A DNA stretch of 64,000 nucleotides, taken from positions 6,510,001 through 6,574,000 of the forward strand of contig NZ_JAUSZL010000002.1 in the NCBI RefSeq assembly GCF_030817535.1, given 5' to 3'. Made by a program: the position numbers and the translations under genes. Positions 1-35,843 of this stretch are shown piece after piece (within the stretch, counting starts at the first letter, position 1; each line of letters begins with the position of its first letter). The DNA comes from Streptomyces sp. V3I8. GTDB taxonomy: Bacteria > Actinomycetota > Actinomycetes > Streptomycetales > Streptomycetaceae. The notes below the pieces were generated by a model. It did no database searches and had not been told where the DNA came from. It saw only the letters and a program-made list of their open reading frames with translations.

Positions 1-670
1 GCCCCACCCCGAGGGCCTGCGCGGCGGTCGTGAGCCGCGCCCAGCGAAGGGCCTCGGCGGCCCCCGCGGCGACCTGCGGCCCGGCGTCGAGGAGTTCGCC
101 CCCGGCCCGGGGGAGGGAGAGGCGCCGGGCGGCGTCCAGGGAGCGGCGCACGCGGGAGGCGGGCGGGGACCCGGACGCCTGCGTCACCCGCAGCTCCGCA
201 CCGGCGGATCCGGTGCCGGTCCCGGTCTCCGCGGCGGATCCGGTGCCGGTCACCGTCAGTTCCATGTCCGACGCGTCGGTGTCCAGGACGTACGGCCCCC
301 CGCCCGGCAGGGCCACCGTCGCGATCGTCCGTCCGGCGGCCAGCCCCGGCAGGAACCGCTTCGCGGGGCCCGGCCCGGTGAGCAGCACGGCCGCCGCCAC
401 CGTCTCCGCCAGCGGCCCCGGTACCGCGTGCCTGCCCAGCTCCACGAAGGCGACGGCCAGTTCGACGGGCCGCCGTCCGAGCCCCTCGTACGCCTCGGGC
501 ACCGCCAGCGCGAACACCCCCGCGTCGGCGAGCCGCGACCACAGCGCCCGCCCGGCGGCCGGGTCCCCGGCGCCCCAGGACCGTACGACCGCGGGCGTGT
601 CCGCCGCCGTCAGCAGGGCGTCCAGGGAACGCGCGAAGGCGGTCTGCTCGGCGTCCAGGAGGAAGCGCAT
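1..670 (-). CDS. Acyl-CoA dehydrogenase (FadE family), 5' part only
   Basis: The first 223 or so residues of an acyl-CoA dehydrogenase are present; the rest lies beyond the left edge. The N-terminal alpha-helical domain is recognisable (MRFLLDAEQTAFARSLD, then VFALAVPEAYEGLGRRPVEL). Its ATG shares one base with the stop of the upstream dehydrogenase (TGATG), so the two are translationally coupled, as expected for a heteromeric steroid-type enzyme. Residues about 141-157 form a Thr/Gly/Ser-rich stretch encoded by a short repeat. By context it may correspond to one of the FadE31-33 group that acts late in HIP degradation. That assignment is inference, because the catalytic half is not visible. 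Confidence 0.85.
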   Translation of the reverse strand, partial: MRFLLDAEQTAFARSLDALLTAADTPAVVRSWGAGDPAAGRALWSRLADAGVFALAVPEAYEGLGRRPVELAVAFVELGRHAVPGPLAETVAAAVLLTGPGPAKRFLPGLAAGRTIATVALPGGGPYVLDTDASDMELTVTGTGSAAETGTGTGSAGAELRVTQASGSPPASRVRRSLDAARRLSLPRAGGELLDAGPQVAAGAAEALRWARLTTAAQALGVG

Positions 671-1809
671 CAGCGGCGCCCCCTCGGCAGGCCGAGAAGC
701 CGCTCGGCGATGATGTCGCGCTGGATCTCATTCGTGCCCGCGTAGATGGGCCCCGCCAGGGAGAAGAGGTACCCCTCGGCCCAGTCGCCGTCCGCCGGCT
801 CCCCGTCCGCGCCCAGCAGATCGAGTGCCGTCTCGTGCAGCGCCACGTCGTACTCGGACCAGAAGACCTTGTTCAGGCTGGACTCCGGACCCAGGGCCTC
901 CCCGTCGAGGAACCGGGACGCCGCCGCGTACGTGAACAACTGGTAGGCACGGGCGCCGATCACCGCGTCGGCCACCCGGTCCCGGGTGAACGGGTCCCGC
1001 CCGCGCCCGTGCCAGAGCGCGGCCAGCCGGTCCGCCGACGCGAGGAAGCGGCCGGGGGAACGGAGGGTGAGGCCGCGTTCGTCACCCGCCGTCGACATCG
1101 CGATCCGCCAGCCCCGGCCGGGCCCGCCGATCACGTCCTCGTCCGGCACGAACACCTCGTCCAGGAAGATCTCGGCGAAGGCCGGCTTCCCGTCCAGCCG
1201 GCCGATCGGGCGGACGGTCACGCCCGGCGCCCGCAGGTCGAACATCAGGTAGGTGAGGCCCTGATGGGGCTTCGGCATGTCCGGCTCGCTGCGGAACAGG
1301 CCGAACGCCCGGTCGGCGAACGCGGCCCGCGACGACCACGTCTTCTGCCCGCTCAGCAGCCAGCCGCCGTCCGTACGCACCGCCCTGGACCTGAGCGAGG
1401 CGAGGTCGGACCCGGCCTCCGGCTCGGACCAGGCCTGCGCCCAGACGACCTCGCCGCGGGCCATCGGGGGCAGGATCCGTACGCGCTGCTCCTCGGTGCC
1501 GTGGACGAGGAGGGTCGGCGCGAGGAGGCTGACGCCGTTCTGGCCGACCCGGCCCGGGGCGCCCGCCGCGTAGTACTCCTCCTCGAAGAGCAGCCACCGG
1601 ACCAGCCCGCAGTCCCGTCCGCCGTACGCGGCCGGCCAGGACACCACCGACCAGCGGTCCGCGCCGAGTTCGGCCTCCCAGGCGCGATGGGCCGCGAAGC
1701 CCTCCGCGGTCTCCAGGGAGGGCAGCGGCCGGGCCGGCACGTGCGCGCCGAGCCAGGTCCGGGCCTCGGCACGGAACGCCTCGTCGGCGGGGGAGTGGGT
1801 GAGGTCCAC
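670..1809 (-). CDS. fadE30: Acyl-CoA dehydrogenase, FadE30-like (HIP-CoA pathway)
   Basis: Flavin-dependent acyl-CoA dehydrogenase of 379 residues, close in length to mycobacterial FadE30 (about 385). The flavin/substrate region WAQAWSEPEAGSDLASL and the C-terminal GTNEIQRDIIAERLLG are clear. The residue that is the catalytic Glu in medium-chain enzymes (YEGT) reads Ala here (IYAGTNEIQ), which occurs in steroid-type FadE proteins. The GTG start at 1809 is chosen for the upstream GGGAAGG. FadE30 of mycobacteria dehydrogenates the propionyl-CoA side chain left on rings C/D. The gene is divergent from ipdF, with a KstR2-like palindrome between them, and overlaps the next dehydrogenase by one base. 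Confidence 0.85.
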   Translation of the reverse strand: MDLTHSPADEAFRAEARTWLGAHVPARPLPSLETAEGFAAHRAWEAELGADRWSVVSWPAAYGGRDCGLVRWLLFEEEYYAAGAPGRVGQNGVSLLAPTLLVHGTEEQRVRILPPMARGEVVWAQAWSEPEAGSDLASLRSRAVRTDGGWLLSGQKTWSSRAAFADRAFGLFRSEPDMPKPHQGLTYLMFDLRAPGVTVRPIGRLDGKPAFAEIFLDEVFVPDEDVIGGPGRGWRIAMSTAGDERGLTLRSPGRFLASADRLAALWHGRGRDPFTRDRVADAVIGARAYQLFTYAAASRFLDGEALGPESSLNKVFWSEYDVALHETALDLLGADGEPADGDWAEGYLFSLAGPIYAGTNEIQRDIIAERLLGLPRGRR

Positions 1810-1866
1810 GGTCGCCTGCCTTCCCAGGAGCTCTCGGAGCGTACGGATCAAGGACGGACAACCTTC

Positions 1867-1886
1867 CCTAACAAGTGTTTGGTAGG
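1867..1886. promoter_or_regulatory. KstR2-like operator, fadE30/ipdF divergent promoter
   Basis: A 20-bp imperfect palindrome (CCTA.CAA....TTG.TAGG symmetric positions) lies 13 bp before the ipdF ATG. Its core at 1870-1883 reads AACAAGTGTTTGGT. This fits the mycobacterial KstR2 motif AnCAAGnnCTTGnT, recalled from the literature, with one mismatch. A similar site is at 8269-8287. The TAGGTT at 1883-1888 could be the -10 of a nearly leaderless ipdF transcript, so bound repressor would cover the promoter. Confidence 0.7.
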
Positions 1887-1899
1887 TTAGCGTGGGCCC

Positions 1900-2733
1900 A
1901 TGACAGACGTCGAGGGCCCGGAGTACGTGCCCGGACACGGACTGCTGAAGGGGCGTACCGCCGTCGTCACGGCCGCCGCGGGCGCCGGTATCGGCGGTGC
2001 CACGGCCCGCCGCTTCCTCGAGGAGGGCGCGCGCGTACTGATCAGCGACGCGCACGAGCGGCGGCTGAAGGAGTACGGGGCCGCGCTGGCCCTGGAGTTC
2101 GAGGGTGTCGCGGTCCACGCCTGTGACGTCACCGACGAGGCCCAGGTGCGGGCGCTGTTCGGCGCGGCCCTGCGGCTGCACGGGCGGCTCGACATCGTGG
2201 TCAACAACGCCGGTCTGGGCGGGACCTCGGACCTCGTCGACATGACCGACGAGCAGTGGTCGGCCGTGCTCGACGTGACGTTGAACGGCACCTTCCGGTG
2301 CACGCGGGCGGCTCTGCGGGCCTTTCGCGAGGCCTTCCGTGCCGGCGGCCACGGCAGCGGCCACGGCGGCGGTCACGGGGGCGGTCGCGGAGGGGTGATC
2401 GTCAACAACGCCTCCGTCGTCGGCTGGCGCGCCCAGGCCGGCCAGGCGCACTACGCGGCGGCGAAGGCCGGGGTGATGGCACTGACCCGGTGCGCGGCGA
2501 TGGAGGCGGCCGCGTTCGGCGTGCGGGTCAACGCCGTGGCGCCCAGCCTCGCCATGCATCCGCACCTGGTGAAGGTGACCACTCCCGGACTGCTGGAGGA
2601 GCTGACGGCCCGCGAGGCGTTCGGGCGGTACGCCGAGCCGTGGGAGGTGGCCAACGCGATCGTGTTCCTGGCGTCGGGATACTCCTCCTACCTGACGGGT
2701 GAGGTCGTCTCCGTGAGCAGCCAGCATGCGTGA
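1900..2733 (+). CDS. ipdF: Short-chain dehydrogenase, IpdF-like
   Basis: NAD(P)-dependent short-chain dehydrogenase of 277 residues. Visible are a variant nucleotide-binding motif (TAAAGAGIGGATA), the NNAG motif and the active-site YAAAK. By context it corresponds to IpdF of the KstR2 regulon, which oxidises or reduces the 5-oxo/5-hydroxy group of HIP-CoA intermediates. An insertion of Gly and His (GGHGSGHGGGHGGGRGG, about residues 148-164, bases 2342-2395) sits just before the strand that carries the catalytic region. I would not expect it in the family core. The gene heads an apparent operon with kstR2 (61-bp gap) and fadA6. Confidence 0.8.
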   Translation: MTDVEGPEYVPGHGLLKGRTAVVTAAAGAGIGGATARRFLEEGARVLISDAHERRLKEYGAALALEFEGVAVHACDVTDEAQVRALFGAALRLHGRLDIVVNNAGLGGTSDLVDMTDEQWSAVLDVTLNGTFRCTRAALRAFREAFRAGGHGSGHGGGHGGGRGGVIVNNASVVGWRAQAGQAHYAAAKAGVMALTRCAAMEAAAFGVRVNAVAPSLAMHPHLVKVTTPGLLEELTAREAFGRYAEPWEVANAIVFLASGYSSYLTGEVVSVSSQHA

Positions 2734-2793
2734 GCGCTCCGGCAGGCCGGGGGGCGGAGCCGGTGTCCCTGCCTCCCGGACCACAATGGGGCC

Positions 2794-3429
2794 GTGCCTA
2801 CCAAGAAGAAGCCCCAGGTGACCGCCTCGCCCGTGCGGCGGCGTGAAATTCTCGGCACGGCCGCCGAGGTCTTCGCCGAACAGGGCTACAACGCCACCAC
2901 CGTACGCAAGATCGCCGACCACGCGGGCATGCTCGCCGGCAGCCTCTACTACCACTTCGACTCCAAGGAATCGATGCTGGAGGAGATCCTGCGGACCTTC
3001 CTGGACGAGCTCTGGGACGGCTACGACACCGTCCTGGACGCCGGACTGGGCCCGCGCGAGACGCTGGAGGCCCTGGTCACCGAGTCGTTCCGGGAGATCG
3101 ACCGGCACCGCTCGGCCGTCGCGATCTACCAGAAGGAGTCCAGGCGGCTCGTCGCACAGGAGCGCTTCGCGTTCCTCGCCGAGTCGCAGCGCAGGTTCGA
3201 GGAGGCGTGGCTGTCCACGCTGGAGCGGGGCGTGACGGGCGAGGTCTTCCGGGACGACCTCGACATCCGGCTCACCTACCGGTTCGTGCGCGACACCGTG
3301 TGGGTCGCCGCGTCCTGGTACCGGCCCGGCGGACAGCACAGCCCGGACGAGATCGCCCGGCAGTACCTGTCGATGGTGCTGGACGGGATCGCCGTACGGG
3401 AACAGCGGGCACCGGAGAAACAGCCGTAG
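2794..3429 (+). CDS. kstR2: TetR-family repressor, KstR2-like
   Basis: TetR-type regulator of 211 residues, close to KstR2 (about 200). The N-terminal helix-turn-helix is clear: RRREILGTAAEVFAEQGYN, then ATTVRKIADHAGMLAGSLYY. The C-terminal ligand domain is the variable TetR type. KstR2 in mycobacteria represses the ring C/D genes until HIP-CoA binds. Here it lies inside the ipdF-kstR2-fadA6 operon and would autoregulate through the 1867-1886 site. GTG start at 2794. Specific orthology is inferred from neighbours and the HTH sequence. Confidence 0.8.
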   Translation: MPTKKKPQVTASPVRRREILGTAAEVFAEQGYNATTVRKIADHAGMLAGSLYYHFDSKESMLEEILRTFLDELWDGYDTVLDAGLGPRETLEALVTESFREIDRHRSAVAIYQKESRRLVAQERFAFLAESQRRFEEAWLSTLERGVTGEVFRDDLDIRLTYRFVRDTVWVAASWYRPGGQHSPDEIARQYLSMVLDGIAVREQRAPEKQP

Positions 3430-3453
3430 GGACAGTCGAGCAGGGGAGCCGTC

Positions 3454-4611
3454 ATGGCCGAGGCCTACATCGTCGAAGCGGTCCGTACCCCCGTGGGGCG
3501 TCGCGGGGGAGGTCTGGGCGGGGTCCATCCGGCCGACCTGGGCGCACATGTGCTGACGGCCCTCGTCGCGCGCTCCGGGATCGATCCGGCCGCCGTCGAG
3601 GACGTCGTCTTCGGGTGCCTGGACACCGTCGGCCCGCAGGCCGGCGACATCGCACGGACGTCCTGGCTGGCGGCCGGACTGCCCGAGGAGGTGCCCGGGG
3701 TGACGGTCGACCGGCAGTGCGGCTCCTCGCAGCAGGCCGTGCACTTCGCCGCGCAGGGCGTGCTCTCCGGCACCCAGGACCTGGTGGTCGCGGGCGGGGT
3801 CCAGAACATGACCCAGGTCCCCATCGCCTTCGCCTCCCGGCGGGCCACCGAACCGCTCGGGCTGACCGAGGGGCCGTTCGCGGGCAGCGCGGGGTGGCGG
3901 GCCCGGTACGGCGACCGGCCCGTCAGCCAGTTCCACGGCGCCGAGCTGATCGCCGCGAAGTGGGGGATCAGCCGGCGCGACCAGGAGGAGTTCGCCCTGC
4001 TGTCCCACCGGCGGGCCGTCCGCGCCGTCGACGAGGGGCGCTTCGAGCGGGAAGTCGTGCCGCTCGGTGACGTCACGGTCGACGAAGGGCCGCGACGGGA
4101 CACCTCCCTGGAGAAGATGGCCGCCCTGCGACCGGTGCTCGAAGGCGGCACCGTCACCGCCGCGTGCTCCTCCCAGGTGTCCGACGGGGCCGCCGCGCTG
4201 CTGCTCGCCTCGGCCCGGGCCGTCCGCGAGCACGGGCTGACACCCCGGGCGCGGATCCACCATCTGTCCGTGCGCGGTGAGGATCCGATACGGATGCTGT
4301 CGGCGCCGATCCCGGCCACCGCGTACGCCCTGAAGAAGGCCGGGATGTCCATGGCGGAGATCGACCTCGTGGAGATCAACGAGGCGTTCGCGCCCGTCGT
4401 ACTGGCGTGGCTGAAGGAGACCGGGGCGGATCCCGAGCGGGTCAACGCCAACGGGGGCGCGATCGCGCTGGGGCATCCCCTGGGTGCCACGGGCGTCAGA
4501 CTGATGACGACGTTGCTGCACGAACTGGAACGGACCGGGGGGCGGTTCGGACTGCAGACGATGTGCGAGGGCGGGGGGCAGGCCAACGTGACCGTCATCG
4601 AGCGGCTCTAG
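3454..4611 (+). CDS. fadA6: Acetyl-CoA acetyltransferase (thiolase), FadA6-like
   Basis: Thiolase of 385 residues with the full catalytic set: nucleophile Cys89 in DRQCGSSQQA, NEAFA at 309-313, His341 in GHPLGATG and Cys371 in CEGGGQANV. FadA6 in mycobacteria cleaves the opened ring C intermediate (MeDODA-CoA) by thiolysis. The gene starts 24 bp after kstR2 and is probably the last of that operon. It converges on ipdC, with a hairpin repeat between them. A general beta-oxidation role cannot be excluded from sequence alone. Confidence 0.85.
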   Translation: MAEAYIVEAVRTPVGRRGGGLGGVHPADLGAHVLTALVARSGIDPAAVEDVVFGCLDTVGPQAGDIARTSWLAAGLPEEVPGVTVDRQCGSSQQAVHFAAQGVLSGTQDLVVAGGVQNMTQVPIAFASRRATEPLGLTEGPFAGSAGWRARYGDRPVSQFHGAELIAAKWGISRRDQEEFALLSHRRAVRAVDEGRFEREVVPLGDVTVDEGPRRDTSLEKMAALRPVLEGGTVTAACSSQVSDGAAALLLASARAVREHGLTPRARIHHLSVRGEDPIRMLSAPIPATAYALKKAGMSMAEIDLVEINEAFAPVVLAWLKETGADPERVNANGGAIALGHPLGATGVRLMTTLLHELERTGGRFGLQTMCEGGGQANVTVIERL

Positions 4612-4674
4612 GCCGGGTGCCCGTCGGCGGGCGGCTTCAGGTGGTGTGCCGGGTGCGGGCCCGGTGGGGGCTCG

Positions 4675-4706
4675 GCGCGCAGTTCCCCGCGCCCCTTCAG
4701 GGGCGC
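4675..4706. repeat. Dispersed GC repeat, copy 1, with hairpin
   Basis: Copy of the Streptomyces-type repeat GCGCGCAGTTCCCCGCGCCC, here followed by a hairpin with stem GCGCCCC/GGGGCGC (4689-4695 and 4700-4706, loop TTCA). It lies between the convergent fadA6 and ipdC genes and may end transcription from both sides, although there is no U tract. Confidence 0.7.
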
Positions 4707-4720
4707 TCACGCAGGGACGC

Positions 4721-5824
4721 TCATGGCGGGCCGGGGCCCAGAAGGGCGCGCAGTGTCTCGTTCGCCTCCCTCATGGTCCTGTCCACCAGTTCCGCGCAGG
4801 ACGGCAGGTCCTCGATCACGCCTGCCACCTGGCCCGAAGCCATCACCCCCAGGTCCGCACGGCCCTCCACCATCGCGGCGCGCAACAGCATCGGAGTGTT
4901 GGCGGCCAGCAGGGTCTGGCTCCAGGTCAGGTCCCTGCCGTGCCGCAGTGCCATGCCGTCGCGGATCATCCGGGACCAGGTCAGGCCCGAGAGTCTGCGG
5001 AAACCGGCCGCCCGGCGCACCGCCCGGGCCAGCGCCCGCGTACGGCCCGCCTGCTCCATGGACGCGACCAGGTCCGTACGGAGCATGCGGTGCGGCAGGC
5101 CGTCCACGGCCGTCGTCACCGTGACGTCCCGCACCGTGGCCGCGAGATAGCGGGCCTTCACCGCGTCCGGCACCGTCGAGTCCGAGGTCAGCAGGAAGCG
5201 GGTGCCCATGGCGACGCCCGCCGCGCCGTACGCCAGCGCCGCGACCAGGCCCCGGCCGTCGAAGAAGCCGCCCGCCGCGACGACGGGGATGTCCACGGCG
5301 TCCACGACCTGCGGGAGGAGCACGGTCGTCGCCACCTCGCCGGTGTGGCCGCCGCCCTCGCCGCCCTGCACGAGCACCGCGTCCGCGCCCCACGCCGCGA
5401 CCTTCTCGGCATGCCGACGGGCTCCGACCGAGGGGACGACCACCACACCCGCGTCCTTCAGCTCGGCGATCAGCTCGCGGGAGGGCGCCAGCGCGAAGGA
5501 GGCGACCCGCACACCCTCCTCCACGATGATCCGTACCCGGTCCCGGGCGTCGCCCGCGTCCGCGCGCAGGTTCACCCCGAACGGCGCCTGTGTACGGGCC
5601 TTCACCTCGCGGACCGCCGCTCTCAGGCGGCCGGGTGTCATCGTCGCGGAGGCGAGGATGCCCAGCGCGCCCGCGTTCGCCGTCGCGGAGACCAGGCGCG
5701 GGCCCGCGACCCAGCCCATCCCGGTCTGCACGATCGGGTACCGGACGCCGGTGAGCCTGGTCAGCGCGGTCTCCAGCGGTTTCTCCGCAGGCCTGTGCGG
5801 CGGCTTCCGCGGCACCTCCTCCAT
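4721..5824 (-). CDS. ipdC: IpdC-like flavin enzyme (nitronate monooxygenase fold)
   Basis: FMN-dependent TIM-barrel protein of 367 residues in the nitronate monooxygenase/2-nitropropane dioxygenase family. Typical segments are YPIVQTGMGWVAGPRLV, VQGGEGGGHTGE, IPVVAAGGFFDGRGL and VAMGTRFLLT. Its place after ipdA and ipdB matches Rv3550-Rv3553 of M. tuberculosis, where IpdC is needed for ring C/D opening through a flavin-dependent redox step. The ATG shares one base with the ipdB stop (TGATG), indicating translational coupling. It is the last gene of the echA20-ipdA-ipdB-ipdC operon. Confidence 0.82.
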   Translation of the reverse strand: MEEVPRKPPHRPAEKPLETALTRLTGVRYPIVQTGMGWVAGPRLVSATANAGALGILASATMTPGRLRAAVREVKARTQAPFGVNLRADAGDARDRVRIIVEEGVRVASFALAPSRELIAELKDAGVVVVPSVGARRHAEKVAAWGADAVLVQGGEGGGHTGEVATTVLLPQVVDAVDIPVVAAGGFFDGRGLVAALAYGAAGVAMGTRFLLTSDSTVPDAVKARYLAATVRDVTVTTAVDGLPHRMLRTDLVASMEQAGRTRALARAVRRAAGFRRLSGLTWSRMIRDGMALRHGRDLTWSQTLLAANTPMLLRAAMVEGRADLGVMASGQVAGVIEDLPSCAELVDRTMREANETLRALLGPGPP

Positions 5825-6594
5825 CAGGTCCCGACCTCGCGCTCGCGCAGGTTCCCCGGGTCGAGGACCTCGCGGATCGACTCCAGCTCCGCCGGGGACG
5901 GCTCACGGGTGTACGCCACCTCGTCCGGGAGGACCAGGCCGAAGCCCGTGGCCGCGACGACCTCCTCGACCGTCACTCCCGGATGCAGCGAGGCGAGCCG
6001 CATCGAGTGGTCCGGGGTCGCGAAGTCGAACACCCCCAGGTTCGAGACCACCCGCGGGAGGCGGTGGAAACGGGTCGCCGTGGGACCGGCCGCGGCGGCG
6101 CTGTCGTACCCCACCCCGCCGATCAGGTCGACCTTCTCGACGAAGACCCGCGCCGAGTGCCTCGGTATCCAGTAACTGACCGGGTTGTTCAGCGTGTTGA
6201 CGGGGCCGCCCCGCACTCCCAGCAACTGCCGTACGGGCCGCCGCCAGTCGCCCACGCACGAGATGTTCTGGTTGCCGAAACGGTCGATCTGGCTCGCGCC
6301 CATCATCACGTGCCGGCGCCCGCCCGTCACCAGCGCCAGATGCTGCCGGTACGGCAGCCAGCCCTCCGGCGCGCCGTCGGCGCCGATCAGCATCGCCTCC
6401 CCGTCGGTCAGCAGCAGGTCGGGCGCGAAGGTGCTCCGCGCGAGGCGGGCCCCGACGGACGGGATCAGGCCCATCGGGCTGGCCAGCACCTCACCGTCGC
6501 CCCGCCACGCCTCGGCGCAGGCGATCACGCAGTACTCGGCGCGGGTGGCGGGCCGCCGGGCACCGCCGGAGGACGCGTGCGGCACCGCGCTCAT
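5824..6594 (-). CDS. ipdB: IpdB-like CoA-transferase-family ring hydrolase subunit
   Basis: CoA-transferase beta-type subunit of 256 residues (IpdB is about 250). Visible motifs include GLIPSVGARLA, MMGASQIDRFGNQNIS and LPDEVAYTREP. In mycobacteria and Rhodococcus IpdAB is not a CoA transferase but hydrolyses ring C of COCHEA-CoA. The start ATG overlaps the ipdA stop (ATGA at 6591-6594) and the stop overlaps the ipdC start, so the subunits should be made in balance. Confidence 0.85.
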   Translation of the reverse strand: MSAVPHASSGGARRPATRAEYCVIACAEAWRGDGEVLASPMGLIPSVGARLARSTFAPDLLLTDGEAMLIGADGAPEGWLPYRQHLALVTGGRRHVMMGASQIDRFGNQNISCVGDWRRPVRQLLGVRGGPVNTLNNPVSYWIPRHSARVFVEKVDLIGGVGYDSAAAAGPTATRFHRLPRVVSNLGVFDFATPDHSMRLASLHPGVTVEEVVAATGFGLVLPDEVAYTREPSPAELESIREVLDPGNLREREVGT

Positions 6595-7475
6595 CGCCGC
6601 TCCTCGTGCCGGGCCCGCGCGTCCTCGTGCCAGGCCCGCACCGCGGTCCGGTAGGCCTGTTCGTCGCCGGTGAGGAACCGCTCGGCGAACTCGGCCCAGG
6701 GCAGCGACGCGTAGAGCCGCTGGAAGGCCTCGTCCCGCTCGTGGTCGGGCGCGCACGACGTGAAGTGCGCCCCGTCCGGCGCCTCCACCACGCCACCGAC
6801 ATGGAGCCGCTTGATCAGCAGCGTCTGCGGGGGCGCCGCCTTCGTCAGCTCCGCCGTGTCGACGATCCGCTCGCACGACACGTACGCCGTCCCGGCCGCC
6901 TCGCAGAACAGGTCGTCGAAGTACGGGTCGGGCCCCAGGTACTGGCCGTTGCCCGCGCGGTCGGCGCGGTTCACATGCACCAGCGCCGCGTCCAGCCGCA
7001 GGGCGGGCATCGCGACGAAGGTCTCGTACGATCCCGTCGACCCGTCCGGGTACGGCGAGGTGACCGTACGCAGGCCGGGGTTGACCCGCATCACGTCGGA
7101 GCCGATGCCGGCCCGCACCGGCAGGAAGGGAAGGCGGTGGGCGGCCGCCCGCAGCCCCCACATGAACATCGCCTCGTCGATCTCCGCCAGTTCGAGGCGG
7201 CCGCTCTCACGGGCCGCCCGGAAATGCGGCTCCAGCGCGATGGAGTCGAGCGTCGCGAAAGGGGCGACCAGTTTCCGGATCCGCCCGGCCGCCGCCAGCA
7301 TGCCGACGTCCGGGCCGCCGTACGAGACGACCGTGAGATCGGTGACCGGTGAGCGCAGCAGCGCCCGCACGAGGGCCATCGGCTTGCGGCGGGAGCCCCA
7401 GCCCCCGATGCCGAGGGTCATCCCGCTCTCCAGCCGGGCGACGGCCTCGTCGGCGGTCATCGTCTTGTCACCCAT
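6591..7475 (-). CDS. ipdA: IpdA-like CoA-transferase-family ring hydrolase subunit
   Basis: CoA-transferase alpha-type subunit of 294 residues (IpdA is about 292). It has GIGGWGSRRKPMALVRA near the N-terminus and HVNRADRAGNGQYLGPDPY in the middle. It pairs with the overlapping ipdB gene to form the ring C hydrolase. The first eight bases overlap the 3' end of echA20. The combination echA20-ipdA-ipdB-ipdC in this order makes the assignment stronger than similarity to generic 3-oxoacid CoA transferases would. Confidence 0.85.
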   Translation of the reverse strand: MGDKTMTADEAVARLESGMTLGIGGWGSRRKPMALVRALLRSPVTDLTVVSYGGPDVGMLAAAGRIRKLVAPFATLDSIALEPHFRAARESGRLELAEIDEAMFMWGLRAAAHRLPFLPVRAGIGSDVMRVNPGLRTVTSPYPDGSTGSYETFVAMPALRLDAALVHVNRADRAGNGQYLGPDPYFDDLFCEAAGTAYVSCERIVDTAELTKAAPPQTLLIKRLHVGGVVEAPDGAHFTSCAPDHERDEAFQRLYASLPWAEFAERFLTGDEQAYRTAVRAWHEDARARHEERR

Positions 7476-8244
7476 CCGCCCGCCCCTCCCTCTCCCTGCC
7501 GGATTCGCCTCCGAACGCGCCGCGGAGCCGGTCGCCCGTGCCGTCGAGACCCGCCTCGAACGTGAAGCCCTGCTCGAAGCGGTAACTGCGGCGCACGTCG
7601 ACGGGGTCGATGCCGTTGATCGCGGCCTTCGCGAGCCGGATCAGCCGGCCGTCCTTGCCCGCGATCTCACGGGCCAGCTCCAGCGCGGCGCGGCGCAGCC
7701 GGTCGCGCGCCACGACCCGCCACACCGAGCCGTGCCCGTGCAGCTCGGCCGCGGTCGCCGTGCGCGACGTGTAGTACAGCGCGCGCATCAGGTGCTGGGG
7801 CACCAGCCGGGACAGGTGCGTGGCCGCGCCCAGCGCGCCCCGGTCCAGCTCCGGCAGCCCGAAGGTGGCGTCCTCGCTGGCCACGATCGCGTCCGCGTTG
7901 CCCGCCAGGCCTATGCCGCCGCCCAGGCAGAAGCCGTGCACCTCCGCCACCACCGGCACCTCGCACTCGTACACGGCGGCGAAGGCCTCCGCGCAGCCGC
8001 GGTTGGCGCCGAGCAGGGCGCTCTCGCCCTTCACCTGTATCTCCTTGATGTCCACGCCCGCGTTGAACCCCCGGCCCTCGGCGGCCAGCACCACACAGCG
8101 GACCGCGGTGTCGCGCCCGGCCGCGCGCACGGTGTCGGCCAGCTCGAACCAGCCGTGCACCGGCAGCGCGTTCACCGGCGGGAAGTCGACCGTCACGACG
8201 GAAATCCCTTTTTCCGGGGACGAGGTGGAGACACCCATGGGCAC
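7468..8244 (-). CDS. echA20: Enoyl-CoA hydratase/isomerase family, EchA20-like
   Basis: Crotonase-fold protein of 258 residues with oxyanion-hole segments at FNAGVDIKEIQ and VHGFCLGGGIGLAGNAD. EchA20 in the KstR2 pathway hydrolyses ring D of HIEC-CoA to give the IpdAB substrate. The GTG at 8244 is eight bases after GGAAAGG; an in-frame ATG at 8238 is the alternative. It is the first gene of the coupled ring-opening operon and is divergent from two dehydrogenase genes, with a KstR2-like palindrome in the shared promoter. Confidence 0.83.
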   Translation of the reverse strand: MPMGVSTSSPEKGISVVTVDFPPVNALPVHGWFELADTVRAAGRDTAVRCVVLAAEGRGFNAGVDIKEIQVKGESALLGANRGCAEAFAAVYECEVPVVAEVHGFCLGGGIGLAGNADAIVASEDATFGLPELDRGALGAATHLSRLVPQHLMRALYYTSRTATAAELHGHGSVWRVVARDRLRRAALELAREIAGKDGRLIRLAKAAINGIDPVDVRRSYRFEQGFTFEAGLDGTGDRLRGAFGGESGREREGRADG

Positions 8245-8268
8245 ATCAGCTACCTTTCCCTTACGTTT

Positions 8269-8287
8269 CCACCAAACGTTTGTTAGG
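8269..8287. promoter_or_regulatory. KstR2-like operator, echA20/SDR divergent promoter
   Basis: A palindrome centred at 8277/8278 with core ACCAAACGTTTGTT (8271-8284). It has the form AnCAAAnnTTTGnT and shares most positions with the site at 1870-1883. It lies 27 bp from the echA20 start and about 50 bp from the dehydrogenase start on the other strand. Confidence 0.7.
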
Positions 8288-8336
8288 TGCGATCCGATCT
8301 GAAGGTAACAGCGAATGCCGACGGGCGGGAGGCCCT

Positions 8337-9071
8337 GTGGACAAGCGGCTCGTCGTGGTCACGGGCGGGACCAGAGGCGTCGGCGCCGGGATCGCCCGGG
8401 CGTTCGCCGAAGCGGGGGACGAGGTCGTGGTCTGCGCGCGCCACCCTTCGCGGACACCGCTCGGCGGGTGCGCGTTCGTCCCCCTCGACCTGCGCGATCC
8501 ACCGGCCGTCCGCGCGTTCTTCGGACGGCTGCCCCGGCTCGACGTCCTGGTCAACAACGCGGGCGGCACCCCGTACCGGCTGCTCACCGGGACGGAGGCC
8601 GAACGGCACGCCCGTGTGATCGACCTCAATCTCGTCACGCCCCTGACCGCCTCCCTGGCGGCGTACGACCGGCTGCGGCGCGCCCGCGGTTCCATCGTGA
8701 TGATCGGCAGTGTCAGCGGGACCCGTCCCTCGCCCGGCACCGCCGCCTACGGGGCGGCCAAGGCCGGACTGGAGAACCTGGCGCGCTCGATGGCCGTGGA
8801 GTGGGCGCCGGACGTGCGGGTCAACACACTGGTGGCCGGAATGGTCCGCACCGAGCTGTCCCCCCTCCACTACGGGGACGAGGACGGCGTCGAGGCCGTC
8901 TCCCGCACCGTCCCGCTGGGGCGGCTCGCCGTGCCTGCGGACGTCGGCGGGGCGGCCGTCTTCCTCGCGTCGGACGCCGCCGCGTACATCACCGGCGCGA
9001 GCCTCCTCGTCCACGGCGGCGGCGAGCGGCCCGCCTTTCTGGACGCGGCCACCGCCGACAAGGAGCAGTGA
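8337..9071 (+). CDS. Short-chain dehydrogenase, Rv3549c-like
   Basis: Short-chain dehydrogenase of 244 residues with TGGTRGVGAGIARAF (cofactor binding), NNAG and the active-site YGAAK. The GTG start at 8337 is chosen for GGGAGG four bases upstream; longer in-frame starts would run into the operator. It is divergent from echA20 and is followed one base later by a second dehydrogenase. This copies the Rv3549c-Rv3548c arrangement opposite echA20-ipdABC. The exact step in HIP degradation is not known to me. Confidence 0.78.
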   Translation: MDKRLVVVTGGTRGVGAGIARAFAEAGDEVVVCARHPSRTPLGGCAFVPLDLRDPPAVRAFFGRLPRLDVLVNNAGGTPYRLLTGTEAERHARVIDLNLVTPLTASLAAYDRLRRARGSIVMIGSVSGTRPSPGTAAYGAAKAGLENLARSMAVEWAPDVRVNTLVAGMVRTELSPLHYGDEDGVEAVSRTVPLGRLAVPADVGGAAVFLASDAAAYITGASLLVHGGGERPAFLDAATADKEQ

Positions 9072-9072
9072 C

Positions 9073-10059
9073 ATGACCTCAGGCACGAGTGCGGACACCG
9101 GCTCCGGCTCCGGCTTCGGTTCCGGTTCCGACTCCGGTTCCGGCTCCGGCGCGGGCATCTGCGACGGGCGGGTGGTGGTCGTCACGGGGGCGGGGCGCGG
9201 CCTCGGACGGGCCCACGCGCTCGCCTTCGCGGCCGAGGGGGCGCGGGTCGTCGTCAACGACCTGGGGGTCGGGCTCGACGGATCGCCGGAGGATGCCGAC
9301 AGCGCGGCCCGGCAGGTCGTGGCGGAGATCCGGGCGGCGGGCGGCGAGGCCGTCGCGCACACCGGGGACGTCGCGACCACCGAGGGCGCCGCCTCCCTCG
9401 TCCACACGGCGCTCGACGCCTTCGGACGGCTCGACACCCTCGTGAACAACGCCGGTTTCCTGCGCGACCGCATGCTCGTGAACCTCGACGAGGACGACTG
9501 GGACGCCGTCGTGCGCGTCCACCTGAAGGGCCACTTCCTGCCGCTGAAGCACGCCACCGCACACTGGCGGGCCGAGGCCGGGGCGGGGCGCGTACCGCAG
9601 GCCCGGGTCGTCAACACCAGCTCCGGAGCGGGCCTTTCGGGGTCGGTCGGGCAGGGCAACTACAGCGCGGCCAAGGCCGGCGTCATCGGGCTCACCCTGG
9701 TGGCCGCCGCCGAGACGGGGCGTTACGGGGTGCAGGTCAACGCCATCGCGCCGGCCGCCCGGACCCGGATGACCGAGACCGCCTTCGCGCAGGCCATGGC
9801 GGCACCGGACGGCGGCTTCGACGCAATGGCCCCCGAGAACGTGTCCCCCCTCGTCGTCTGGCTCGGTTCCGCCGCGAGCGCGGGGGTCACCGGCCGGGTC
9901 TTCGAGGCCGAAGGCGGCCGGATCGCGGTCATGGACGGCTGGCGCCCGGGACCCACGGCCGACAAGGGTTCCCGGTGGACCCCCGCCGAGGCGGGCGACA
10001 CGGCCCTGCGGCTCCTCGCGGAGGCGCTGCCTCCGACCGCGGTCCACGGGGCGCGCTAG
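9073..10059 (+). CDS. Short-chain dehydrogenase, Rv3548c-like
   Basis: Short-chain dehydrogenase of 328 residues resembling the hydroxyacyl-CoA dehydrogenase part of multifunctional enzyme type 2. Motifs are TGAGRGLGRAHALAFA, NNAGFLRDRM and YSAAKAG. The longer C-terminus fits a family length near 300. The first 30 residues are almost only Gly, Ser, Thr and Asp, encoded by a GGCTCC-type microsatellite (about 9100-9155), so the true domain starts near residue 31. The ATG is one base after the previous stop, so coupling is likely. A likely role is oxidation of a 3-hydroxyacyl-CoA in the same pathway. Confidence 0.78.
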   Translation: MTSGTSADTGSGSGFGSGSDSGSGSGAGICDGRVVVVTGAGRGLGRAHALAFAAEGARVVVNDLGVGLDGSPEDADSAARQVVAEIRAAGGEAVAHTGDVATTEGAASLVHTALDAFGRLDTLVNNAGFLRDRMLVNLDEDDWDAVVRVHLKGHFLPLKHATAHWRAEAGAGRVPQARVVNTSSGAGLSGSVGQGNYSAAKAGVIGLTLVAAAETGRYGVQVNAIAPAARTRMTETAFAQAMAAPDGGFDAMAPENVSPLVVWLGSAASAGVTGRVFEAEGGRIAVMDGWRPGPTADKGSRWTPAEAGDTALRLLAEALPPTAVHGAR

Positions 10060-27317: not shown

Positions 27318-29147
27318 TCAGGCCCCTGCCTTGCTGAGGACTGTGGGCGCTTCGGCTTCCTCGTGGAATTCGAGCTGGCGGCGCCGGTTCGGGATGAGGC
27401 CTTCCGGTCGGAAGCGCATCAGCAGGACGAGCGCGAGGCCGAAGGCGAGGAGCTGGTAGTCGCCGAGGAACTGGAGCTTGGCGGGGATGATGTAGAGCAG
27501 TGCGGCGCCGACGAGGGGTCCGCTGATGGTGCCCATGCCGCCGAGGACGACCGCCGCGAGGAGGAAGGCCGAGTTGGGGGGTACGACGTGGGCGAACTGG
27601 TACTGCTCGGGTGTCACGGTGTAGGTGACGTGTGCCTGGACGGATCCGGCGAGGCCGGCGAGGGCGGCGCCGAGGGCGAAGGCGATGAGTTTGACGCGGA
27701 AGCCGTTGATGCCCATGGCGAGTGCGGCGGTCTCGTCCTCGCGGATGGCGACCCAGGCGCGGCCGATGCGGGAGTCACCGCTGCGGCGGAAGACGACCAC
27801 GACGATCAGCGTGATGAGCAGCATCAGGAAGAAGTAGTTGGCGAAGCGCGCGATGGTGAAGCCGGCGATGCTGTGTTCCTGGCCGAAGTCGAAGCCGAGG
27901 ATGTTGAGGTTCGGGATCGAGGAGATGCCGTTAGAGCCGTTGGTGATGTCGGGTCCGCTGGTGCCGTCCATGTTGAGGACGGTGATGCGGAAGATCTCGC
28001 CGAAGCCGAGGGTGACGATGGCGAGGTAGTCGCCGCGCAGCCGCAGGGTCGGGGCGCCGATGATGACGCCGAAGATCATGGCGACGGCCGCTCCGAGGAG
28101 GGCGGCGGCCCAGAACGGCAGGTGGATGTCGAAGGGGGAGGAGGGGGAGCCGGAGACCATGGCCGCGGTGTAGGCACCGACGCCGAGGAAGGCGACGTAT
28201 CCGAGGTCGAGGAGGCCGGCGAGGCCGACGACGATGTTGAGGCCGAGGGCGACGGTGGCGAAGATGAGGATGTAGACGCCGATGGTCGCGTACTGGTCGT
28301 CGGACTGGGTGAAGGGGAATGCGGCGGCGGCGAGGAACGCGCCGAGCATGGTGACGTTGCGGTGCTTGGCGGTGAGGGCGGAGACGCGGTTGACGAGTCC
28401 GGCCTTGGTCGCGGCGGCGAAGCCGAAGCCCGCGGTGATGAGGAAGCCGATGAACTGTTCGTCGTACTCGGTGCCGATGCCGTAAGTGAAGACGATCAGG
28501 CCGAGGCTGAGTGCGGCGATGATGACGAGGATTTCGGCGTACGCGGGGAGCTTGTGGGCCGGGGCCCTGGTGGTGCCGGAGGCGAAGGCGGTCTTGACGA
28601 CGGTGCCGGTGTGCCGCAGGCGGTGGCGGAACTGCTCCCAGCCGGTGTCGTCCGGGTCGGACGGGTCGGGCGCCGGGCGCTGGAACGGCAGGGAGAGTGC
28701 GCCGGTCAGGGCCGCCAGGGTGGCGACGGCCGCGATCCAGCCGCCGGGTTCGAGGTTGGCGAGGCCGCCGAGTTCGGAGGCGATTGCGAGGACCGTGTAC
28801 CAGGCGGTGGCGAACGCGGCGAGTGCGGCGAGTTTGACGGCGCTGTCGGCGCCGGCGGGGGTCAGCCAGCGCAGGCCCTTGACTCCGTAGGAGGAGAGGG
28901 CGAAGAGCGTGGTGAGGAGGCCGCCGATGAGGACGAGGACCTGCAGGCCGCCGGGGTAGCCGTAGACGGTGAGGTCGCCGGGGAAGGCGTCCGTCCAGGT
29001 CCAGGCGAGGAAGGTGGAGACGATGGTGAGGAGGCCGCCGCCGGTGGCGAGGGCGCGTCCGATGTGGGGCGGGATGCCGATGAGTCCGGCGGTGGAGCCC
29101 GTGGGCTCCTTCGCGGGCGTCTGGGGCGCGTCGGTCTGTGTGGTCAT
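27318..29147 (-). CDS. livM: Branched-chain amino-acid ABC transporter permease LivM, long form
   Basis: Membrane permease of 609 residues. The C-terminal half (from about residue 280) is a normal LivM with GLNIVVGLAGLLDLGYVAF and the coupling-loop region AWVAIREDETAALAMGI. The N-terminal half adds several extra hydrophobic segments and a hydrophilic linker (PDPSDPDDTGWEQF) not found in short LivM proteins. The ATG at 29147 has AGGG about ten bases upstream; a GTG at 29156 overlapping the livH stop (GTGA) is equally possible. Confidence 0.9.
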   Translation of the reverse strand: MTTQTDAPQTPAKEPTGSTAGLIGIPPHIGRALATGGGLLTIVSTFLAWTWTDAFPGDLTVYGYPGGLQVLVLIGGLLTTLFALSSYGVKGLRWLTPAGADSAVKLAALAAFATAWYTVLAIASELGGLANLEPGGWIAAVATLAALTGALSLPFQRPAPDPSDPDDTGWEQFRHRLRHTGTVVKTAFASGTTRAPAHKLPAYAEILVIIAALSLGLIVFTYGIGTEYDEQFIGFLITAGFGFAAATKAGLVNRVSALTAKHRNVTMLGAFLAAAAFPFTQSDDQYATIGVYILIFATVALGLNIVVGLAGLLDLGYVAFLGVGAYTAAMVSGSPSSPFDIHLPFWAAALLGAAVAMIFGVIIGAPTLRLRGDYLAIVTLGFGEIFRITVLNMDGTSGPDITNGSNGISSIPNLNILGFDFGQEHSIAGFTIARFANYFFLMLLITLIVVVVFRRSGDSRIGRAWVAIREDETAALAMGINGFRVKLIAFALGAALAGLAGSVQAHVTYTVTPEQYQFAHVVPPNSAFLLAAVVLGGMGTISGPLVGAALLYIIPAKLQFLGDYQLLAFGLALVLLMRFRPEGLIPNRRRQLEFHEEAEAPTVLSKAGA

Positions 29148-29152
29148 AGGTC

Positions 29153-30085
29153 TCACGCCCTGTCCGCGACGCGCTCGCCGAGCAGGCCCTGTGGCCTGAA
29201 GAGGAGCACGAGGATGAGGAGTACGAAGGCCCAGACGTTGGCCCAGGACTGGCCGCCGAGCTGTTCCATGCCGGGGACGTCGGCGATGTAGGCGGTGGCG
29301 AGGGTCTCGGCGAGGCCGAGGACGAGGCCGCCGATCATGGCGCCGTAGATGTTGCCGATGCCGCCGAGGACGGCCGCGGTGAAGGCCTTGAGGCCGAGGA
29401 TGAAGCCCATGCGGAACTGGACCTGGCCGTACTTGAGGCCGTAGGCGACGGCTCCGACGGCGGCGAAGACGGCGCCGAGGGCGAAGGCGACCACGATGAT
29501 GCGGTCGGTGTTGATGCCCATGAGCTTCGCGGTGTCCGGGTCCTGCGCGGTGGCCTGCATGCCGCGTCCGGTGCGGGTCTTCATCACGAAGAACGCGAGG
29601 ATCGCCATGCTGATGGGGGCGGCGATCAGGAGGAAGATGTCACCGGTCTGGATGGTGACGTCGCCGATCTTGAAGGGGCCGCCCTCGATCTCGGGGAAGT
29701 TGATGGACTGCTTCGCGTCGGGGTACCACGCCCACACGGCCTGCTGGAGGGCGAGGGAGAGGCCGATGGCGGTGATGAGCGGGGCGAGGCGTGGCGCGGT
29801 GCGCAGCGGGCGGTAGGCGAACCGTTCCGCTCCCACGGCGACGGTGGTCGCCGTGATGACGGCTCCGAGGAGCATCAGGGGCAGTGCGATCCACATGGTG
29901 GTGCCGTCGGGCAGCACGTACAGGTAGACCGTGAGCGCGCCGAAGCCTCCGATCATGAAGATCTCGCCGTGGGCGAAGTTGATGAGCTGGACGATGCCAT
30001 AGACCATCGTGTAGCCGATGGCGACCAGCCCGTACATGGATCCCAGTAGCAGGCCGTTGACCAGCTGCTGCGGCAGTTCGTTCAC
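29153..30085 (-). CDS. livH: Branched-chain amino-acid ABC transporter permease LivH
   Basis: Membrane permease of 310 residues with typical GLLLGSMYGLVAIGYTMVYG and INFAHGEIFMIGGF near the start and coupling loop GRGMQATAQDPDTAKLMGI. The GTG at 30085 is chosen because GGAGG lies seven bases upstream; the frame is open further but lacks a signal there. It follows livK after 112 bp that contain a strong hairpin. Confidence 0.92.
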   Translation of the reverse strand: MNELPQQLVNGLLLGSMYGLVAIGYTMVYGIVQLINFAHGEIFMIGGFGALTVYLYVLPDGTTMWIALPLMLLGAVITATTVAVGAERFAYRPLRTAPRLAPLITAIGLSLALQQAVWAWYPDAKQSINFPEIEGGPFKIGDVTIQTGDIFLLIAAPISMAILAFFVMKTRTGRGMQATAQDPDTAKLMGINTDRIIVVAFALGAVFAAVGAVAYGLKYGQVQFRMGFILGLKAFTAAVLGGIGNIYGAMIGGLVLGLAETLATAYIADVPGMEQLGGQSWANVWAFVLLILVLLFRPQGLLGERVADRA

Positions 30086-33381: not shown

Positions 33382-35661
<2,280 letters not shown>

Positions 35662-35843
35662 CTCGGCCTCCTCTTCGGGCACACGTGTGAGGTACGTCCG
35701 CGATCCTCCCACGTGGTACCCGCACCGATCGTGCCCCGGTACGGGGAACGACCGCGGACGCTCCGCCCGGCGGCGGACGGGAGCACCCGACCGCGGACGG
35801 CGGGGCGGGACCGACTGTCGGTGGGGCGTGGCAGGATCGGGGT

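Follow-up and report, generated by a model that had tools for sequence, protein, structure and literature searches.

Degradation of steroid rings C and D is usually seen as the final part, or tail, of complete steroid breakdown; genes for this tail in a Streptomyces genome raise the question of which substrate reaches them, and by what route. The genes in question lie at the left edge of a 64-kb stretch of DNA (the window; bases 6,510,001-6,574,000 of contig 2) from Streptomyces sp. V3I8, whose genome of 9.32 Mb is assembled in four contigs. A preliminary description of the window had proposed that they act on methylhexahydroindanedione propionate (HIP), partly degraded steroids or hopanoid-like compounds, and our comparisons with characterized families support a HIP-type function. 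In the best reading of the data, a KstR2-controlled module probably degrades substrates of the HIP-coenzyme A (HIP-CoA) type, a second locus (locus B) feeds it, and classical 9,10-seco ring A/B genes take no part. We put the probability that the cluster is a HIP-type ring C/D module under a KstR2-like repressor, with the preceding steps encoded in locus B, at roughly 0.75. The observations behind it are the identities of the genes by sequence, the operators, the co-occurrence of the two loci, their linkage in other lineages, and searches in which neither a true KshA nor a close HsaC was found.

The cluster consists of eleven uninterrupted reading frames from approximately position -385 to 10,059 and includes every gene named by the preliminary description (Table 1). 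Two acyl-CoA dehydrogenase genes on the reverse strand are followed by ipdF, kstR2 and fadA6 on the forward strand, ipdC, ipdB, ipdA and echA20 on the reverse strand, and two short-chain dehydrogenase/reductase (SDR) genes on the forward strand. Seven of the eleven passed a filter on GC content by codon position, with third-position GC (GC3) of 0.89-0.95, and the left acyl-CoA dehydrogenase gene has a GC3 of 0.94; the remaining three lie inside over-long frames and were not scored alone. The family assignments first made by inspection were borne out by matches to solved structures (6co6_A/B, 4w97, 2ibd) and by curated NCBIfam cut-offs, which five cluster proteins exceed, EchA20, IpdF and FadA6 among them. 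We take PRK07938, PRK07831 and PRK07801 to be the families of Rv3550, Rv3559c and Rv3556c, an assignment with which the gene order in the loci compared agrees. The best Protein Data Bank matches of the IpdA- and IpdB-like subunits were the 6co6/6con pairs (336 and 291 bits), of which 6co6 is presumably IpdAB, versus a far lower 83 and 58 bits against glutaconate CoA-transferase; this places them with the COCHEA-CoA hydrolase type, and residues E98, D100 and E101 of the IpdA-like subunit were kept in 100 of 100 aligned homologues. IpdC lacks a specific model and was identified by its nitronate monooxygenase/FabK family and its position: it scored 249 bits against the FabK model, under the cut-off of 453, and the gene products in the corresponding (ipdC) place of three mycobacterium-type loci are 65-68% identical to it. 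The same three loci share the order SDR2-SDR1 divergent from echA20-ipdA-ipdB-ipdC, as had been proposed. Judged by their best matches, the two dehydrogenases are FadE31 and FadE32, with 78-80% identity to FadE31 and 56-62% to FadE32 of four Streptomyces that carry KshA (KshA+). Their presence had been recognized correctly, but their bounds required correction, the left gene extending to approximately -385 and its neighbour starting near 1809.

The KstR2-like repressor is accompanied by a 14-bp palindrome at the divergent promoters, a combination that marks the cluster as a probable KstR2-type regulon. The mycobacterial KstR2 motif is given as AnCAAGnnCTTGnT (PMC3068626), and 22 matches to it with up to two mismatches were found in the window versus 5.7 expected. 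The strict core A.CAA....TTG.T was far more selective, occurring at two sites only in the window, both at divergent promoters of the cluster, against a chance level of 0.04 in shuffles of an 80-kb stretch. To assess conservation we drew on 106 related loci, from which 90 fadE31-ipdF and 103 echA20-SDR regions could be extracted. This revealed an 8/8 core in all 90 fadE31-ipdF regions, and in the echA20-SDR regions an 8/8 core in 87 of 103 and a 7/8 core in the other 16, counts that are non-independent owing to common ancestry among the loci and to the double entry of at least two genomes. A single shuffle per region yielded 8/8 cores in 0/90 and 0/103 regions and a 7/8 core in 1/103. The R and W of the KstR2 motif RDTVW, which we take to be HIP-CoA contacts of the mycobacterial repressor, were kept in 96 of 96 aligned homologues; the likeliest signal for the repressor is HIP-CoA or a compound very similar to it. 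An exact match to the Streptomyces KstR2-type pattern at a third place (G000:C2:8263313-8263326) was dropped as probably due to chance, because a reversed control pattern matches about as often and no reference protein lies within the surrounding 20 kb.

The cluster had been called complete-looking, which proved too strong, as fadD3, fadE30 (ipdE1) and fadE33 (ipdE2) were found neither in the cluster nor in its flanks. Of the genes that the preliminary description had proposed to look for to the left of base 1, the FadE32-like gene does extend there; fadD3 and fadE33 were not there, the neighbours on that side being qcrB-like and gltBD-like by eye. Equivalents of the three genes lie instead in the same genome beyond the window. 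When FadD3 and FadE30 of the KshA+ Streptomyces G086 were used as genome queries, matches of 54% and 61% were obtained at C2:3,826,495 and C2:3,857,050, 30 kb apart, which defined locus B (G000:C2, approximately 3,809,000-3,868,000), approximately 2.7 Mb from the window; its genes were called by conservation between genomes, and some of their boundaries are approximate. The locus-B FadD3 scored 772.9 bits against PRK07656, above the FadD3 equivalog cut-off of 657. Two of the dehydrogenases have FadE33 and FadE30 as their best matches, with 35-47% and 55% identity, respectively, to the proteins of four mycobacterium-type loci. FadE30 and FadE33 are described as the complex IpdE1-IpdE2, which dehydrogenates 5-OH-HIP-CoA (PMC8708139). 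Locus B further encodes two thiolase-like proteins with DUF35/ChsH2-type partners, one of which exceeds the PRK07855 (lipid-transfer) cut-off; among solved structures, the lipid-transfer protein 6ok1 is a match for Ltp1 (1.1e-98). Its oxidoreductases comprise two luciferase-like monooxygenases (LLM), an enzyme resembling flavin-containing monooxygenases (FMO), SDRs, and an HsaB-like flavin reductase of 185 bits (cut-off 230). Also present are two enoyl-CoA hydratases, two more acyl-CoA dehydrogenases, three amidohydrolases, a cyclase (by eye), a nucleoside-diphosphate (NDP)-forming CoA ligase, a further FadD, and regulators of the Streptomyces antibiotic regulatory protein (SARP), AraC and (by eye) TetR families. 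This content was largely alike across the seven Streptomyces genomes read.

The distribution of the two loci was then compared in 150 Streptomyces genomes, Streptomyces sp. V3I8 included. IpdA was found at 1e-60 in 103 of them, so that the cluster is not, as had been supposed, unusual for the genus. FadE30-like proteins (1e-90) occurred in 99 of the 103 IpdA+ genomes versus 3 of the 47 others (p 1.5e-29), FadD3-like proteins in 98 versus 3 (p 1.4e-28; the threshold of 1e-130 was set after a gap was seen between 1.9e-135 and 1.7e-101), and Ltp1 (1e-150) in 97 versus 1 (p 9e-31), all three p values being calculated without regard to kinship among genomes. Two of the three IpdA-negative genomes with a FadE30-like protein, G001 and G079, are just 78-79% complete. 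FadE30 of the type found in KshA+ Streptomyces (at least 75% identity) occurred in 17 genomes, of which 7 also had the locus-B type at 1e-90, versus 82 of the 86 other IpdA+ genomes. This suggests that the two types replace each other, as would be expected if both do the same job.

Where the substrate comes from depends in part on the ring A/B genes. At 1e-3, KshA_C (PF19298) matched in 40 of the 150 genomes, with a best match of at least 296 bits in 9 and of at most 101 bits in the remaining 31. All nine genomes with a strong KshA are IpdA+, and in eight of them kshA and ipdA share a contig, no more than 60 kb apart. With HsaC of G086 as query at 1e-40, matches were obtained in 28 of the 150 genomes, 8 at 73% identity or higher and the next best at 49%; the eight are all among the nine strong-KshA genomes. 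The query itself has HsaC as its best family at 378 bits, under the cut-off of 450, and in the same genome HsaB scored 213 (cut-off 230) and HsaA 610 (cut-off 450). KshA and a close HsaC were seen near the ipd genes in G086 (L094, L095), G074, G083, G103, G098 and G076; in G086, HsaA and the HsaB-like reductase lie close by, as does a KstD-like gene recognized by eye. From their gene content, these KshA+ members of the genus look truly capable of degrading steroids in full. In Streptomyces sp. V3I8 itself, KshA_C gave only a distant match of 78 bits and HsaC none at 1e-40, with 15 of the 22 first-look candidates scored, and thus the KshA-HsaC pair of the classical 9,10-seco pathway was not found in its genome. 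These searches support the lack of canonical ring A/B genes that the preliminary description had noted in the window; of the two kinds of gene that it had proposed to seek in the genome, a FadD3-like gene was located, in locus B, and a true KshA and a close HsaC were not. CYP125, ChsH1, KshA, HsaC and HsaA were all absent from locus B and the window region of this strain, where alone CYP125, ChsH1 and HsaA were sought.

One explanation is that Streptomyces sp. V3I8, lacking a ring A/B route of its own, imports HIP or similar acids that other steroid-degrading organisms release. Locus B would then only activate the acids and shorten the side chain, and its remaining genes would act on different acids. 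The rarity of a strong KshA (9/150) and a close HsaC (8/150) relative to IpdA (103 Streptomyces) speaks for this, as does a FadD3-type ligase, the enzyme acting on free HIP, in 98 of the 103 IpdA+ genomes, that of V3I8 exceeding the FadD3 cut-off. PMC8399759 discusses extracellular intermediates and cross-feeding, and PMC5380842 records that a streptomycete acted on HIP. Locus B is, however, much larger than such a role would need, with its LLM and FMO-like enzymes, cyclase, amidohydrolases, two Ltp/DUF35 sets and extra CoA ligases, and this large content is mostly constant in the seven genomes read. We consider uptake a serious possibility that nonetheless falls short of even odds. The same scarcity of strong KshA and close HsaC among carriers, together with the spread of the cluster through the genus, could also point to a substrate that is not a steroid. 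The D/E rings of hopanoids resemble the C/D rings of steroids, and these or another hydrindane-bearing compound, such as a terpenoid, might converge on HIP-like CoA esters. The conserved KstR2 motif residues, the operators and a FadD3 above its cut-off point instead to HIP or a near relative, and a CYP125 in the joint region of a distant actinobacterium, described below, points to sterols, making a non-steroid substrate rather unlikely.

The ring A/B genes might also have been lost. In a tree of ipd proteins (FastTree, 54 loci; several nodes weak), KshA+ clusters fell in at least three places among the reduced ones, a scatter suggesting that the reduced form has neither one origin nor a recent one; a single recent loss of the ring A/B genes is thus unsupported. 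Several losses or gains would be compatible with a cluster that is the decaying relict of a lost steroid pathway. We rejected this idea as very improbable on account of the uninterrupted frames, the conserved operators and residues, and the presence of the cluster in 103 of 150 genomes.

A different line of evidence comes from outside the genus. IpdA was found at 1e-40 in 55 of 396 genomes of the phylum, and in one distant actinobacterium, G349, a single 160-kb region contains the ipd genes together with homologues (at least 43% identity) of 16 of 29 locus-B reference proteins. This region encodes IpdF (64%), FadE31 (56%) and FadD3 (55%), with the acyl-CoA dehydrogenases ACADd (64%) and ACADc (45%) directly behind FadD3, as well as LLM1 (51%), LLM2 (54%), the cyclase (56%), FadDx (49%), the NDP-forming CoA ligase (52%), SDR (67%), SDRx (50%), Ltp1 (46%), Ltp2 (60%), DUF35b (55%), the hydratases ECHa (52%) and ECHb (57%), and TetR (43%). 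It also contains a CYP125 (4e-163 to solved CYP125) and a ChsH2-like MaoC-DUF35 protein, behind which comes a small protein taken by eye for ChsH1 (Pfam match absent). Amidohydrolases, an FMO, the flavin reductase and a strong FadE30 were not seen in the region. Neither KshA_C nor HsaC (at 1e-30) matched anywhere in the genome, in which, at approximately 96% completeness, single genes may be missing. Among the 15 genomes of the phylum in which KshA_C and HsaC were both tested, neither matched in G349, G507, G188 and G247; G495 had a 32-bit KshA_C match only; G165, G535, G394 and G443 had KshA_C matches of 113-142 bits with HsaC not found; G388 and G439 had moderate matches to both; and four mycobacterium-type genomes had strong matches to both. 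Linkage was also seen in G275 (L305, approximately 5.9 kb and 19.3 kb), where fadE31 and ipdC flank a locus-B amidohydrolase (64%) and Ltp2 (72%) lies beside fadE30, and in G405, where a locus-B SDR (62%) adjoins fadE30. The remaining 11 of 14 regions read, each 20 kb to 80 kb long, had either no locus-B matches or none above 39%. With the two gene sets linked in three lineages and inherited together across 2.7 Mb, a functional connection between the ipd cluster and locus B is likely.

These arrangements raise the possibility of an as yet undescribed aerobic route, encoded by locus B, in which rings A and B (or the corresponding part of the substrate) are removed independently of KshA and HsaC, with HIP as the end point. 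LLM/FMO oxygenases, hydrolases, CoA ligases and Ltp-type aldolases would carry it out. The G349 region, the amidohydrolase and Ltp2 placements in G275, and the match of Ltp1 to 6ok1 would all fit such a route. Set against this, none of the locus-B enzymes is tied to ring A or B chemistry, the incompleteness of G349 leaves room for missing single genes, CYP125, ChsH1, KshA, HsaC and HsaA are absent from the two regions of V3I8, and its HsaB-like reductase is under the cut-off, as is that of the KshA+ G086. We therefore regard the route as somewhat doubtful. If it exists, it may be a steroid or polycyclic-terpenoid route common to most Streptomyces and some deep-branching actinobacteria, encoded by locus B, bypassing KshA and HsaC and converging on HIP-CoA, a proposal that we offer tentatively.

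Whichever source supplies the substrate, a mechanism for the KstR2-controlled module fed by locus B can be proposed, with a step order modelled on the mycobacterial pathway (PMC5380842); for Streptomyces sp. V3I8 we infer the substrate, the inducer and every catalytic step. A HIP-like hydrindane propionate would be activated by the locus-B FadD3, and the resulting HIP-CoA would release KstR2. The locus-B FadE30/FadE33 (IpdE1-IpdE2) and hydratases would shorten the side chain, after which IpdF and IpdC may prepare ring C, EchA20 may open ring D, IpdAB would open ring C, and FadA6 with FadE31/FadE32 would finish the open chain. A 1977 report cited in PMC5380842 describes a streptomycete that accumulated methyl-oxo-octanedioic acid (MOODA) while growing on HIP, which fits a ring C/D function whichever source of HIP holds. 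Several points weigh against the proposed coupling of module and locus. The locus-B FadE33-like protein scored 207 bits against the IpdE2 cut-off of 450, although FadE33 of the KshA+ G086 is likewise under it at 245. No KstR2-type core site was found in locus B in the stretches of five genomes (Streptomyces sp. V3I8, G107, G080, G089 and G109), and the idea of KstR2 control of locus B was accordingly set aside as unsupported; no KstR2 match was seen in the G349 region. Beyond the kinship ignored by the p values, the co-occurrence was set against a single control family, distant Rieske proteins, which showed no association with IpdA (p 0.28); absences were called among scored candidates, which numbered at most 16 in each genome for IpdA, 9 for FadD3, and 12 for FadE30 and Ltp1; and a given locus-B marker is lacking in 4-6 of the 103 IpdA+ genomes.

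Table 1. Genes and putative operators of the cluster, in window coordinates, with the principal match of each.
Feature	Position	Strand	Match or remark
FadE32-like acyl-CoA dehydrogenase	1..670, extending outside the window to ~-385	-	45-47% to FadE32 of four mycobacterium-type loci
FadE31-like acyl-CoA dehydrogenase	670..1809 (GTG start 1809)	-	61-64% to FadE31 of four mycobacterium-type loci
KstR2-type operator AACAAGTGTTTGGT	1870..1883		fadE31/ipdF divergent promoter; one mismatch to AnCAAGnnCTTGnT
IpdF-like SDR	1900..2733	+	PRK07831, 413.8 bits (cut-off 336)
KstR2-like TetR repressor	2794..3429	+	4w97 KstR2, 3.7e-55; 2ibd, 6.2e-67
FadA6-like thiolase	3454..4611	+	PRK07801, 693 bits (cut-off 591)
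IpdC-like flavoprotein (nitronate monooxygenase/FabK family)	4721..5824	-	PF03060, 293 bits
IpdB-like subunit	5824..6594	-	6co6_B, 8.3e-86
IpdA-like subunit	6591..7475	-	6co6_A, 2.4e-99
EchA20-like enoyl-CoA hydratase family protein	7468..8238	-	PRK07938, 398.6 bits (cut-off 260)
KstR2-type operator ACCAAACGTTTGTT	8271..8284		echA20/SDR divergent promoter; two mismatches to AnCAAGnnCTTGnT
SDR, PRK07856 family (position of Rv3549c)	8337..9071 (GTG start 8337)	+	349.9 bits (cut-off 255)
SDR, PRK07791 family (position of Rv3548c)	9073..10059	+	480.4 bits (cut-off 373)

The surroundings of the cluster were compared in named loci (80 overall, 60 of them at least 20.8 kb long). The right-hand neighbour, peptidase-like by eye, has a homologue in 59 of the 60 long loci, and every one of the eleven cluster genes is present in 58-60 of them, so that the genomic place of the cluster looks settled. 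The qcrB-like cytochrome b gene (by eye) directly to its left, at L001 17922-19643, has a homologue in 35 of the 60. For the IpdA of the window, identity is 93% to the Streptomyces apricus protein and 88-92% to the proteins of the next five named relatives. Locus L231 of Streptomyces coeruleorubidus ATCC 13740 likewise contains the full set of eleven genes. In three loci, L288 (G096), L289 (G055) and L285 (G069), only the ipdC-ipdB-ipdA-echA20-SDR-SDR half was present within the 20 kb read, with kstR2, ipdF, fadA6 and fadE31/32 not beside it. Elsewhere in the window, a formate-dehydrogenase-like molybdopterin oxidoreductase (33382-35892) and part of a branched-chain amino-acid ATP-binding cassette transporter (27318-29156) were recognized by eye.

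The ring C/D pathway, KstR2 and IpdE1-IpdE2 are already known, and a genome survey by Bergstrand and colleagues places 55 of 57 Streptomyces among the genomes without a steroid pathway (PMC4810484). Among the matches listed in a search of openly licensed PMC papers, none described a stand-alone module, a split pathway or locus B in Streptomyces. In this genus, a very common one in soil, 103 of 150 genomes have the tail; a second conserved locus nearly always accompanies it, and the classical head is usually missing. Either Streptomyces commonly scavenge HIP as a shared currency, or HIP can be reached by another route. Compared with the mycobacterial and rhodococcal KstR2 regulon (Rv3548c-Rv3564 type), the cluster shares the enzyme families, the order of the two SDR genes and echA20-ipdA-ipdB-ipdC, the repressor family and the operator type, but the equivalents of fadD3, fadE30 and fadE33 lie 2.7 Mb away without a KstR2-type core site, and a strong KshA and HsaC were not found in Streptomyces sp. 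V3I8. Within the genus, the HIP clusters of KshA+ strains (G086, G074, G012, G083 and others) have matching genes that are mostly 69-88% identical, FadE32 being less similar. They differ in carrying fadE30 and echA13, mostly between ipdF and fadE31, in most cases fadE33 and fadD3 in the same stretch, and kshA near ipdA in eight of nine, all of which are absent from the window. The G349 region resembles our two loci in combining the ipd genes with 16 of the 29 locus-B homologues and in its absent KshA_C and HsaC matches, and differs in being a single stretch with CYP125 and a ChsH2-like gene and without a KstR2 match or a strong FadE30. In Saccharopolyspora hirsuta, fadD3 also lies outside the ring C/D cluster; that organism, however, is described as degrading cholesterol fully (PMC8708139) and as possessing kshA and kstD genes (PMC9782250).

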